A DNA stretch of 13,246 nt from Candidatus Brocadiaceae bacterium (GTDB lineage: Bacteria; Planctomycetota; MHYJ01; JACQXL01; CAKKQI01): positions 1 to 13,246 of the forward strand of contig CAKKQI010000061.1 of the NCBI GenBank assembly GCA_919901895.1. Reading direction: 5' to 3'. The position numbers and the translations under genes are program-made. Below the pieces are notes generated by a model. The model was given only the letters and a program-made list of their open reading frames with translations. It had not been told where the DNA came from and ran no database searches. This document shows, one piece after another, positions 1-10,622 of this stretch (position 1 is its first letter; every line of letters begins with the position of its first letter).

Positions 1-174
1 GGTGATCCGAGTGATGATTGACTATTTTTAACGAGGATAAATTTTTCATATGACACTACTGCCTTGTCAACTTTGTTTTTGTGGGCTACCCAGACTAAAG
101 TCTGGTCCGCCTAAGGCGGATTAGGCTTTAGCCTAAGGAAAACCACTAATTTCAGTATTGACAAGGCACTACGC
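1..174. other. Noncoding stretch downstream of mraY
   Basis: This left-edge stretch has no convincing gene. It is dominated by the inverted-repeat element at 60-168, described separately. murD or ftsW would often follow mraY in a dcw operon, but neither is recognisable here. A minus-strand ATG at 49-47 opens a frame that runs off the window edge after about 16 codons. Its peptide resembles no known dcw protein and it has no Shine-Dalgarno sequence. No clear intrinsic terminator (GC stem followed by T-run in the minus direction) is seen after mraY. Confidence 0.6.
60..168. repeat. MITE/REP-like inverted-repeat element with three hairpins
   Basis: The ends are perfect 11-bp inverted repeats: TGCCTTGTCAA at 60-70 and TTGACAAGGCA at 158-168. 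Inside lie three back-to-back perfect hairpins. CAGACTAAAGTCTG is at 91-104, TCCGCCTAAGGCGGA at 106-120 and TTAGGCTTTAGCCTAA at 121-136. The middle one recurs exactly inside pheT. No ORF of useful length is present, so it cannot code for a transposase. The structure fits a non-autonomous miniature repeat or a composite of REP-like units. The mobile nature is inferred; the symmetry is seen directly. Confidence 0.7.
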
Positions 175-6382: not shown

Positions 6383-6402
6383 ACCCCGATATTCATCGGG
6401 GT
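6383..6402. repeat. CCCCGAT/ATCGGGG palindrome containing the rsmH stop
   Basis: ACCCCGATATTCATCGGGGT forms an 8-bp stem with a 4-base loop. The rsmH stop codon (TGA at 6395-6393) falls in the loop region, so the palindrome supplies the last two residues (P-R) and the terminator of RsmH. It shares its arms with the pheT palindrome at 10112-10130 and, in diverged form, with 7305-7325. Confidence 0.7.
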
Positions 6403-7352
6403 GAGTCCGTTAAAATGTTTTTCAACGGACTCACTTTTTCTGCCACGCGTAGTTTAGCGCTTCGGGAACGGGGGTTCTTGGCCATTTCCTCATCCGAAGG
6501 GTAAACTGGTTTTTTAGTAAGCAGGTTAAAAATTCCCTGTTTAGCTTTTTCCCGAAAAGTTTGTTTTACCAGCCGGTCTTCCAGGGAATGAAAACTGATA
6601 ATACCCAGCCGACCGCCCGGTTTGAGATACCGGTCGCTTGTTTCCAGGAATTGTTCCAAGTTTTTTAATTCCCGGTTTACTTCAATCCGGAGCGCCTGAA
6701 ACACCCGCGTCGCCGGATGAAGGCGCGTTCTGACCGGCGGAACCGACTTTTTTACCAGGTCGGCCAATTCAGACGTTCGGTCGATTCTTTTTACCCGACG
6801 TTTTTTGATAATATTTTTAACGATTCGCTTGGTCCAGCGTTCTTCGCCGTAGGAACTGATAATTCTTAATAATTCTGGTTCACGATAGTGGTTAATAATT
6901 ATTTCAGCCGTCAGCGGTTGCGCCCGGTTTATTCTCATATCCAGTGGACCATCATCCTGAAAACTAAATCCGCGGTTCCGGTCGGCTAACTGAACGGATG
7001 AGATTCCCAGGTCCAGCAAAATAAGGTCAACCTGATTAATATTTAAATCCTGTAAAATCTCGCTCAGGTTAACAAAATTATCACAGAATAATTTAACGTT
7101 TTGATAATCTTTGAATTTTTCCTGGCACCATTTGATATTAAGAGGGTCCCAATCAATTCCGATCAACCGGCCTGTTTGCCCAAGGCCGATTAAAAAATAG
7201 TCGCTATGTCCGCCTCGGCCAATGGTGGCATCAACGGCCGTTTCCCCGGGGCGGGGAGATAATAAATTAATAATTTCTTTAACTAAAACTGGAATATGCT
7301 CCGCTCCCCGATGGACATCGGAGGGTGGGACAGGTTCATTATTTAGGTTCAC
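6393..7352 (-). CDS. rsmH: 16S rRNA (cytosine1402-N4)-methyltransferase (RsmH/MraW)
   Basis: RsmH methylates N4 of C1402 in the 16S rRNA P site using S-adenosylmethionine. The 319-residue protein has the SAM-binding VDATIGRGGHS motif, LLDLGISSVQL followed by GFSFQDDGPLDMR, PATRVFQALRIEVN and SFHSLEDRLVKQ, all family signatures in the right order. The start is GTG at 7352, two bases beyond the stop of the upstream small gene, with no strong Shine-Dalgarno sequence, so coupling is likely. Conservation normally starts at the EHIPVL segment. The preceding ~18 residues are extra and include a palindrome-encoded SDVHRG. The C-terminus is likewise extended by two palindromes, one of which contains the stop codon. 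Catalytic core is intact. Confidence 0.96.
   Translation of the reverse strand: MNLNNEPVPPSDVHRGAEHIPVLVKEIINLLSPRPGETAVDATIGRGGHSDYFLIGLGQTGRLIGIDWDPLNIKWCQEKFKDYQNVKLFCDNFVNLSEILQDLNINQVDLILLDLGISSVQLADRNRGFSFQDDGPLDMRINRAQPLTAEIIINHYREPELLRIISSYGEERWTKRIVKNIIKKRRVKRIDRTSELADLVKKSVPPVRTRLHPATRVFQALRIEVNRELKNLEQFLETSDRYLKPGGRLGIISFHSLEDRLVKQTFREKAKQGIFNLLTKKPVYPSDEEMAKNPRSRSAKLRVAEKVSPLKNILTDSPR
6401..6434. repeat. 11-bp-stem inverted repeat in the rsmH 3' end
   Basis: GTGAGTCCGTT (6401-6411) and AACGGACTCAC (6424-6434) are perfect inverted repeats around a 12-base loop. In rsmH this encodes the VSPLKNILTDS segment beyond the conserved methyltransferase core. It abuts the 6383-6402 palindrome, so two repeat units are nested or tandem. 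On the plus strand the stem is followed by TTTTT, so it could also act as a terminator of antisense transcription. That last role is inference. Confidence 0.7.
7305..7325. repeat. Diverged CCCCGAT-type palindrome in the rsmH 5' end
   Basis: The core CCGATG-GA-CATCGG (7308-7321) is a perfect 6-bp stem. The flanks would extend it as CCCC/GGGG except for one changed base (A at 7322). In the rsmH frame it encodes S-D-V-H-R-G, upstream of the conserved domain. The resemblance to 6383-6402 suggests the same repeat family, here partly decayed. Confidence 0.5.
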
Positions 7353-8158: not shown

Positions 8159-8192
8159 TTTTAGCCAAAGGACTAATCAGCCTCTGGCTGAA
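8159..8192 (-). promoter_or_regulatory. Twin hairpins in the mraZ leader
   Basis: Read on the minus strand, TCAGCC-AGA-GGCTGA (8177-8191) forms a 6-bp stem. The adjacent TTAGTCC-TTT-GGCTAA segment forms a second stem with one bulge. The second ends right before the GAGGG ribosome-binding sequence, so it could tune mraZ translation. The pairing is visible; the regulatory role is inferred. Confidence 0.35.
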
Positions 8193-8530: not shown

Positions 8531-8587
8531 ATGATAACTATTATATCTGTTTTAACCGGTGATTTTAAGTGCGCAGAGTCGCATTGA
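8531..8587 (+). CDS. Possible 18-residue peptide, antisense to the pheT end
   Basis: A plus-strand GGAGGTG (8517-8523) sits seven bases before an ATG, which opens an 18-codon frame ending in TGA at 8587. The peptide MITIISVLTGDFKCAESH is hydrophobic at its start and then polar, with one Cys. The last 23 bases overlap the 3' end of pheT on the opposite strand. The Shine-Dalgarno sequence is as good as any in the window and a promoter-like sequence lies upstream, which is why it is listed. The length is far too short to exclude chance and no family is recognised. Confidence 0.25.
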   Translation: MITIISVLTGDFKCAESH

Positions 8588-10622
8588 ATTGTTTTTGGAG
8601 AGTTGTAATAATTTCGTTGATTATTTTATCGGCTTCTTCGTTGGTTAGGGTTCGGTCCGGATGGCGGAAATAGAGCGAAAAGGCCAGACTTTTTTGGTGG
8701 GACGGAACCTGCTTGCCCCGGTAGAGGTCAAAAAATCTGACCGATTCTAATAATGAACCGCCTTTTGACTGAACAGCTGATTTAATTTCTTCCCATTTGA
8801 TTTTTTCATCAACCACAACGGCGAGGTCGCGTTGAATGGCCGGCTGACGTGGAAATTCCCGGTAAACAGCCGAAGCATCAGATTGCGAAATAATTTTTTC
8901 CAGGTCAATTTCCGCCACGGCTACGTTTTTTTGAGTTTCATACTTTCCCCGGGCTTCAGGGGATAATTCACCTGAATAACCAATAGTTTCGGTATTCATC
9001 AGAATGGCCACCATTTTTTTTGAATCAAGAGCATTTATTTCACCTTGAACCGGGTGGTAAGAAATATTTTTTACCAGGTTTAACTTTATCCATAAAGCGT
9101 TCAAAGTCCCTTTTAAGGAATAGAATCCCTGGTTATCCAACAAACCCAGCATCAACTTTTCCTGTCCGGGCCGAGAGTAAATCTTCGCCATTTCAAACAA
9201 TTGGATGACTCTTTCCCGCTCGGAGGCTTCATTTGTTTTATTGGCCAGTAATAAAACCGGACAAAGACTGTTGCGCAAGAACCGGTCTTCCATCCCTTCG
9301 GGTCCCAAAAGTCCGATTAATTTTTGCTCGGACCAGAAAGTAAAATCCGGTTGATATTTTTCTTCCATAAAACTGGAGGTCATTATTTCATTATAAGCCA
9401 GTCCGGCCAGGGTAGGCCGGATGAGTTCGGTTATTTCATCAACTTTGTTCTTTTGCTCAACTTTTAAATTGATCACCGGTGGGGTTGTCGGAATCTGTTC
9501 ATATCCCCGGATGCGGGCGATTTCTTCAATCAAATCTATTTCCGCGTTGATGTCATTCCGGAAATCAGGAATCTTGATTTTAATTCCGGCCGCTGATTCG
9601 CTTAATCGGTTGAACCCCAGCCCTTTTAAAATTCTTTTTATTTCAGATTTCTGAAATGGGCAACCTAAAATTTGAGCCACCCGTTTGAAGCGGAGCGTGA
9701 TTGTTTTTTCTTTTGTTTTAAGGAGATTAATAATCTGTTGTTCGGTTACCTCGCCGCCGGCCAGTTCGGTTATCAGCTGGATCGCCCGTCGGGAGGCCGG
9801 TGCAATCACCGATGGCGCCACGCCGCGTTCAAAACGGTAAGAAGAATCAGAAGAAAGATTTAACCGGCGCGCTGTTTTTCTGATAAGTGATGGATTAAAA
9901 TAAGCGGTTTCCAGGAGAAGATTGGTCGTTTGTTCGTTTACTTCGGTTGATTGGCCGCCCATAATGCCGGCGATGGCGACGGGTTCGCGGGCATCTGCGA
10001 TGACCAGCATTTCCGAGGTCAGCTGGTATGTTTTTCCGTCAAGCGCTACGATTTTTTCTCCGCCTAAGGCGGACGGTTTGGCCCGCCGGACCACAATCCG
10101 TTTTTCGGCCAGCCCCGATTCTATCGGGGCCAGGCGGTCCAGGTCAAAAGCATGCATTGGTTCGCCGTATTCAAACATCACGTAATTTGTAATATCAACG
10201 ATATTATTGACAGAACGCAATCCGATATCGGCCACTTTTTTCTTCAACCATTCCGGGGATGGGGCGACGCGGACATTTTTAATGACTCGGGCGATATAAA
10301 CCGGGCAGTCTTCAGTGTTTTCAATGGTAATAATATTTTTTACCGATCCCGCCGCCTTGGCGGGACGCTGAGGTAATGTTTTTAAACGGGGCGGCTGATA
10401 GTCTTGTCTGGTAATGACGGCCACTTCACGGCTGACGCCGAGAACGCTGAGGCAATCCGGCCGGTTAGCCGTAATTTCCAGTTCAAAATAAGCGTCATTA
10501 TTATTAATGGGCCGGTAATGTTCCACCTTGACGCCGTGCATCGTTAAAAGATGCGCCAATTCATCAGACGGCGGTAATTTAAATGAACAATATTCTTGAA
10601 GCCATTGATAAGTGAATTTCAT
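8565..10622 (-). CDS. pheT: Phenylalanyl-tRNA synthetase beta subunit, short form
   Basis: PheT forms the alpha2-beta2 enzyme with PheS, binding tRNA-Phe and editing Tyr-tRNA-Phe. The 685 residues start with the B1 segment (MKFTYQWLQEYCSF), pass directly into NRPDCLSVLGVSREVAV (53-69), then the B3/B4 editing domain (about 105-275), the B5 domain, the catalytic-like core and a C-terminal anticodon-binding FDX-ACB domain (about 590-685, starting at REFPRQPAIQRDLAVVVD). The OB-fold tRNA-binding domain found in ~800-residue PheT proteins is absent, with no frame disruption. Three GC-rich palindromes are read in frame (residues 86-92, 165-170, 184-188), the last two in editing-domain loops longer than in E. 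coli PheT. The start follows an AT-rich hairpin and lacks a Shine-Dalgarno sequence. Confidence 0.97.
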   Translation of the reverse strand: MKFTYQWLQEYCSFKLPPSDELAHLLTMHGVKVEHYRPINNNDAYFELEITANRPDCLSVLGVSREVAVITRQDYQPPRLKTLPQRPAKAAGSVKNIITIENTEDCPVYIARVIKNVRVAPSPEWLKKKVADIGLRSVNNIVDITNYVMFEYGEPMHAFDLDRLAPIESGLAEKRIVVRRAKPSALGGEKIVALDGKTYQLTSEMLVIADAREPVAIAGIMGGQSTEVNEQTTNLLLETAYFNPSLIRKTARRLNLSSDSSYRFERGVAPSVIAPASRRAIQLITELAGGEVTEQQIINLLKTKEKTITLRFKRVAQILGCPFQKSEIKRILKGLGFNRLSESAAGIKIKIPDFRNDINAEIDLIEEIARIRGYEQIPTTPPVINLKVEQKNKVDEITELIRPTLAGLAYNEIMTSSFMEEKYQPDFTFWSEQKLIGLLGPEGMEDRFLRNSLCPVLLLANKTNEASERERVIQLFEMAKIYSRPGQEKLMLGLLDNQGFYSLKGTLNALWIKLNLVKNISYHPVQGEINALDSKKMVAILMNTETIGYSGELSPEARGKYETQKNVAVAEIDLEKIISQSDASAVYREFPRQPAIQRDLAVVVDEKIKWEEIKSAVQSKGGSLLESVRFFDLYRGKQVPSHQKSLAFSLYFRHPDRTLTNEEADKIINEIITTLQKQFNATLRT
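9402..9421. repeat. 7-bp-stem palindrome in pheT (B5/core junction)
   Basis: TCCGGCC-AGGGTA-GGCCGGA is a perfect 7-bp stem with a 6-base loop. It encodes RPTLAG in a segment that aligns without length change to other PheT proteins (helix before the EIMTSSF segment). It may be chance or a replaced segment, so it is held apart from the insertion-like palindromes. Confidence 0.3.
10059..10073. repeat. In-frame palindrome in pheT encoding SALGG
   Basis: TCCGCCTAAGGCGGA (6-bp stem, 3-base loop) is identical to the noncoding hairpin at 106-120. In pheT it is exactly five codons, residues 184-188. It sits in the loop between VVRRAK and EKIVALDG, where E. coli PheT has only two residues, so it appears as an added segment. 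Confidence 0.75.
10112..10130. repeat. In-frame CCCCGAT palindrome in pheT
   Basis: GCCCCGATTCTATCGGGGC has an 8-bp stem and a 3-base loop. It encodes A-P-I-E-S-G (165-170) between FDLDRL and RIVVRRA, a loop about eight residues longer than in E. coli PheT. The arms match those of the repeat at 6383-6402. Confidence 0.7.
10347..10365. repeat. In-frame TCCCGCC/GGCGGGA palindrome in pheT
   Basis: TCCCGCCGCCTTGGCGGGA has a 7-bp stem and 5-base loop. It encodes P-A-K-A-A-G (87-92), in the linker between the N-terminal B1 part and the B3/B4 domain. Linker length varies in the family, so an insertion there would be harmless. Confidence 0.65.

Follow-up and report, generated by a model that had tools for sequence, protein, structure and literature searches.

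What has placed three palindromes, each read in frame, inside a gene for an aminoacyl-tRNA synthetase? The gene is pheT, which encodes the phenylalanine--tRNA ligase beta subunit, and it lies on a 13,246-nucleotide stretch of DNA from a Candidatus Brocadiaceae bacterium (contig CAKKQI010000061.1; hereafter the window, meaning the whole stretch analysed). The window is one contig of a 2.5 Mb bin of 509 contigs, with a completeness of 93% and a contamination of 4.75%. A preliminary description of this DNA had suggested that a selfish palindromic repeat invades coding sequence here, and the copy numbers and gap-matched insertions reported below support that suggestion. We consider it probable that ultra-short dispersed palindromic insertion elements have multiplied in this planctomycete lineage, landing within and between protein genes. 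The features of the window on which the argument turns are the following.

8565..10622, minus strand: pheT, phenylalanine--tRNA ligase beta subunit, 685 amino acids, the insert-bearing gene (open reading frame, ORF, and profile match)
10059..10073, minus strand: F1 unit TCCGCCTTAGGCGGA, stem 6, loop 3; codons S-A-L-G-G (residues 184-188); net +12 bp
10113..10129, minus strand: F2_17 unit CCCCGATAGAATCGGGG (coding strand); residues read LAPIESG; net +21 bp including the duplication
10109..10112, no strand: 4-bp direct repeat CCAG (coding strand CTGG), one copy beside F2_17
10130..10133, no strand: 4-bp direct repeat CCAG, the other copy beside F2_17
10347..10365, minus strand: F3-type palindrome TCCCGCC-N5-GGCGGGA, stem 7, loop 5, at linker residues ~86-92
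106..120, minus strand: the window's other F1 copy, not within an ORF and adjoining other hairpins

The three pheT palindromes are simple hairpins (folding z-scores -4.1, -2.4 and -3.1), in frame on the minus strand with stems of 6-8 bp, exactly where they had been described. Each belongs to a different sequence family. The middle hairpin spans 10112-10130 with a stem of 8 and a loop of 3, of which the outermost G-C pair is better assigned to the CCAG repeat flanking a 17-bp core. The product of the host gene scores 564.5 bits against TIGR00472 (cut-off 402.65); its named homologues point to Planctomycetota, with Scalindua and Brocadia lower in the list, and a contig scan for PheT returned distant PheT only. 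The B3/B4 domain (residues 106-289) contains both the F2_17 and the F1 inserts. In an AlphaFold2 model of the protein (mean predicted local distance difference test score, pLDDT, 89.8), residues 164-175 form a loop with two isolated bridge residues (166 and 174), and residues 181-188 and the linker at 76-97 form loops with zero bridge residues, pLDDT falling below 50 at 87-94. The placement of two palindromes in editing-domain loops and of the third in a linker agrees with the preliminary description.

Comparison with relatives indicates that two of these palindromes are insertions. The F2_17 site faces a 7-residue gap, and the F1 site a 4-residue gap, in 29/29 aligned PheT relatives. Both gaps recur in all 37 homologues of another set, which shares some members with the first and comprises 37 of 119 further proteins listed; every one of the 37 has 0 residues at positions 164-170. 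The loops had been put at about 4 and 8 residues longer than in E. coli PheT; against the Staphylococcus-type chains shown and the planctomycete relatives the first figure holds and the second is 7. In the nearest relative, a member of the same family (G001; PheT identity 60%), the protein reads AFDLDK-LTEQR and RRARQ-GEK where that of the window reads AFDLDRLAPIESGLAEKR and RRAKPSALGGEK. Subtracting the 17-bp core and one CTGG from pheT leaves D-R-L-A-E, as in relatives. The aligned relatives are without the inserted residues, rather than carrying the same residues in non-palindromic codons. At the third palindrome the linker is 5 residues longer than in G001, and length differences there run from 0 to 6 residues across the alignments shown; the gap-matched comparison stands for two of the three palindromes. 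Because the linker varies, the palindrome there is likely, but not certain, to be an insertion too.

The repeats are far too numerous for coincidence. Genome-wide, F1 (TCCGCCTTAGGCGGA) occurs in 70 copies and F2_17 (CCCCGA-N5-TCGGGG) in 64, with 0 matches to the reversed control pattern in either case. A 595-kb sample, whose contigs were mostly picked for carrying F1 and whose densities are not genome averages, holds 99 F1-like, 50 F3-like, 42 F2-like, 27 F6, 23 F5 and 7 F4 matches; a third-order Markov model predicts 0.1-0.2 for the F1-, F2- and F3-like patterns, with means of at most 0.2 overall (13 contigs below 40% GC among C1-C26 were left out of this test). The notion that these are chance palindromes in ordinary variable loops, to which we attach practically no weight, is refuted as a general account by the reversed-pattern and Markov controls. 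At least one hit is nevertheless of the chance kind: an F2_18 match in an acyltransferase gene encodes TPIIIGD where the protein is conserved and just as long in an 80%-identical relative.

F1 and F2_17 differ in their spread. F1 is nearly private to this genome, with matches in 6/99 genomes (70 here, 4 in G006, 2 each in G001 and G074, 1 each in G005 and G093). F2_17 has matches in 37/59 genomes. Within the order it reaches 16 copies in G008, 13 in G001, 12 in G006, 7 in G005 and 5 in G003, with controls at 0; beyond the order copies are mostly few, and where there are more (14 in G023) the controls match too (4). One loop is common to 15/16 of the G008 copies, which suggests separate amplifications. 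Further palindromes were seen alongside: an F2_18-like hairpin at window positions 6383-6402 that spans the 3' end of the ORF at 6393-7352, a palindrome TCAGCC-TCT-GGCTGA between ORFs at 8177-8191, and another dispersed type, GATTACACTGATT...AGATTACACAGATT, with varying loops, at L108 5223 and other loci. Thirteen contigs of the bin (among L097-L120, C1-C26) are below 40% GC, 12 of them below 33%, and have none of the palindromes, the other sampled DNA being at 40-60%; they are therefore probably foreign to the bin.

F2_17 is the one family in which we found a feature that had not been predicted, a 4-bp target-site duplication. An exact 4-bp direct repeat flanked 8 of the first 13 copies; across the 45 distinct copies with flanks, out of 64, the repeat is exact in 18 and has one mismatch in 11. 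Permutation of the right flanks yielded 2.6 exact repeats on average and never more than 11 in 20,000 rounds. The repeat has the consensus CNNG (C at -4 in 41 copies, G at -1 in 37, C at +1 in 36 and G at +4 in 37; n = 45). With the conserved outer C and G set aside, the inner two bases still match in 21/45 copies, against a permutation mean of 4.3 and a maximum of 13. The 17-bp unit and its 4-bp duplication add up to 21 bp, a multiple of three, and a net gain of 7 residues is found at three F2_17 sites: in PheT, in a UbiD-like protein (relative to G001, 73% identity, the flanking repeat having one mismatch) and in a TPR protein (41% identity). Of the F2_17 copies with enough flank, 21/24 fall within ORFs of 100 codons or more, the coding fraction of the sample being 0.87; the figure for F2_18 is 7/18.

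Because of the 4-bp duplication, insertion at a staggered cut is the best account for F2_17. A trans-acting enzyme would insert the units at such a cut, and the duplication favours a DDE-type transposase or integrase as the most likely candidate; F1 may move by another route. Both net gains are divisible by three and the units can be read through in most frames, so that a copy in a surface loop would be tolerated and could be maintained as selfish DNA, translated into a short peptide such as APIxSG, SALGG, PPKA or RLRR. A functional signal that arose by point mutation and was selected in many locations, for instance an uptake sequence, a terminator or a site of methylation or recombination, would also reach a high copy number, and 63/99 F1-like copies lie outside ORFs although the sample is 87% coding, so that some could act as RNA hairpins. 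The copies in conserved genes, however, are insertions of defined net length and not substitutions, and F2_17 is flanked by a duplication; such an origin is contradicted at the tested sites and we regard it as very improbable.

F1 presents a different picture. Its net gain is 4 residues (+12 bp, again a multiple of three) at three sites, in PheT, AtpG and KorA. In AtpG the gain is seen against 22/22 aligned relatives (7 of 29 loci, which shared few words, were left out) and equally in the three solved-structure alignments shown; in KorA it is seen against G001 (75% identity) and L220, while another relative, L224, aligns with +2. The AtpG codons are CAG-F1-TTG here and CAA-GAG-CTG in G001, which reads as 15 bp replacing 3. 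On the sequences compared, a 15-bp unit may have replaced 3 bp, or 12 bp may have been added next to a triplet that already matched. Nested copies show the same net +12 bp: a host palindrome, GTCCGCCT-AAG-GCGGATT, is empty at one site of the genome and elsewhere carries F1 in place of AAG. Altogether 20/70 F1 copies are nested in other palindromes, the hosts being F1 in 11, F2-like in 6 (some degenerate) and F3 in 3. Exact copies lie in ORFs in 26/70 cases, read as SALGG in 16 of the 26, RLRR in 5 and PPKA in 5, and the three bases before these coding copies favour CCG (17, 18 and 16 copies). A longer conserved element around F1 was considered and rejected, the flanks of the 70 copies showing weak preferences only once shared host repeats are set aside. 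Six loci (L016 10207, L083 6018, L091 79, L063 992, L017 7749 and L020 12432) carry a longer repeat of the form CACCATCCTGC/T-[F1]-, in many cases with CTACGTGG after it, and F1 occupies an identical position within each; some F1 copies have therefore spread within larger repeats.

These traits of F1 give some footing to an account without a transposase, in which hairpin fragments, either DNA or reverse-copied RNA, are caught at breaks by repair or template switching, existing hairpin loops being preferred. F1 replaces bases without duplicating any, its nesting is frequent, and for mitochondrial GC clusters the authors of PMC4478555 favour a route through RNA or retrotransposition. The fixed CNNG duplication of F2_17 and the constant net sizes at independent sites speak against repair capture and for a defined insertion reaction. 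Repair capture or an RNA route is possible, above all for F1; as an explanation of the whole we think it unlikely, though not negligibly so.

A further account would make these units ordinary repetitive extragenic palindromic (REP) sequences, that is, hairpins with a GTAG foot that a REP-associated tyrosine transposase (RAYT) mobilises and that in some cases enter genes. The genome does offer material for it: GTAG-footed hairpins have 43 matches in 625 kb, and a single Y1_Tnp match resembles the NCBIfam RAYT model, at 54 bits against a cut-off of 80, scored on the 107-residue matched piece. REPs within genes are known, and those of T. roseum enter small palindromes (PMC3733652). The resemblance extends to short palindromic repeats in many copies. 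However, GTAG lies within 8 nt on either side of only 8/70 F1 copies and 0/13 F2_17 copies. REPs are mainly extragenic, whereas F2_17 sits mostly in ORFs and F1 is mixed. F2_17 also carries a target duplication, which, to our knowledge, is not expected of IS200/IS605-type single-strand transposition. We therefore judge the REP account improbable for F1 and F2_17. The RAYT-like gene itself (L026 15080-15760, own contig C364) adjoins GTAG-footed and other palindromes, for example GGCGACC-ACAA-GGGTCGCC repeats, and neither F1 nor F2_17 flanks it in the stretch examined; together with the GTAG hairpins it is probably a true REP system alongside F1 and F2_17.

Larger insertions that contain palindromes are found in other genes as well. 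Relative to solved structures they amount to +11 residues in QueA, about +17 in aspartate-semialdehyde dehydrogenase, +12 in an MsbA-like transporter and +14 in KorA, and arginyl-tRNA synthetase has one relative to G001. Several observations weigh against insertion by a dedicated enzyme as the general explanation. No mobilising enzyme for F1 or F2_17 was found, and no strain pair with presence and absence at one site. In 16/45 F2_17 copies the flanks have two or more mismatches, and therefore the duplication has decayed or is absent in a third of them; the two G001 copies, the only ones sampled for duplication in relatives, have 1 and 2 mismatches. F1 shows no target duplication at offsets of -4 to +4 and lengths of 2-8. 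TrxB carries two tandem F1-like units and is longer than in G001 by 30 bp, not 12; the gap is present in 27/28 relatives (1 of 29 loci, which shared few words, was left out), and G003 is equally long there although it lacks the palindromes. The IorA insertion is ambiguous, one F2_18 hit and one F7-type hit in ORFs correspond to no insertion, and one F3 hit in an ORF adds only 2 residues. In the search for the enzyme, no full-length element with F2 ends was found in ~625 kb of this 2.5 Mb genome, and one 1,100-bp match, L213, belongs to another genome. DDE_Tnp_1 has two matches. One of these, at L028 15633-16313 (own contig C317), has one internal stop codon, and no F2-type inverted ends occur in the stretch examined around it.

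The preliminary description had likened the palindromes to Rickettsia palindromic elements (RPEs), and the likeness holds in one respect: dispersed palindromic inserts lie in frame within functional genes, here those for PheT, AtpG, KorA and the UbiD-like protein. RPEs are ~150 bp long, fall into ten families and encode a conserved peptide (PMC10969869), and have a CGTC end (PMC3733652). The present units, in contrast, are 15-19 bp long and belong to several families, CGTC lies near 6/70 F1 and 0/13 F2_17 copies, and F2_17 has its CNNG duplication. By analogy, F1 and F2_17 may be a functional parallel of RPEs; given the size of the units, they are RPE-like in action but not assigned to that class. 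The small dispersed repeats (SDRs) of Nostoc, from another phylum and with other sequences, are said (Elhai et al. in 2008) to be 21-27 nt long, hairpin-forming, recently mobile and nested in themselves and in other repeats. They would resemble F1 in its nesting, for which an empty host site is found here; we know of no SDRs with in-frame residence in conserved proteins or a 4-bp CNNG duplication.

Short direct repeats and merging are known from the GC clusters of yeast mitochondria (such as GC42), among which the copy number of an 18-nt unit, GC18, varies (PMC4478555). These clusters differ in being mitochondrial and mostly intergenic, with repeats of 2-3 bp rather than the 4-bp CNNG seen here. 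Because of this 18-nt unit, small size alone is not new. Miniature inverted-repeat transposable elements (MITEs) are 70-300 bp long with ends of 15-30 bp (PMC3733652). F2_17, but not F1, shares with them inverted-repeat ends and a target-site duplication (at most one mismatch in 29/45 copies), without coding capacity, and differs in consisting of two 7-bp arms and 3 bp. In the literature searched, whose coverage excluded most subscription papers, no such elements were described in Planctomycetota, nor was any 17-bp unit that combines a 4-bp CNNG duplication with frame-neutral residence in ORFs.

Taken jointly, and as a tentative reading that falls a little short of probable, F2_17 would rank with the smallest DNA units whose insertion is known to duplicate the target site. 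Its net size of 21 bp and that of F1, 12 bp, would let the units settle in coding sequence as chance allows, so that housekeeping proteins become longer stepwise, and a putative enzyme of this planctomycete order would handle such tiny substrates. If this is true, target-duplicating insertion is pushed down to a 17-bp unit, and the minimum size of a mobile DNA substrate becomes directly testable. The order of insertion could be read from nested palindromes. Essential enzymes, among them a tRNA synthetase, the ATP synthase gamma subunit and a 2-oxoacid oxidoreductase, would have been lengthened by fixed in-frame steps, which would explain some lineage-specific protein indels that otherwise pass for loop variation.
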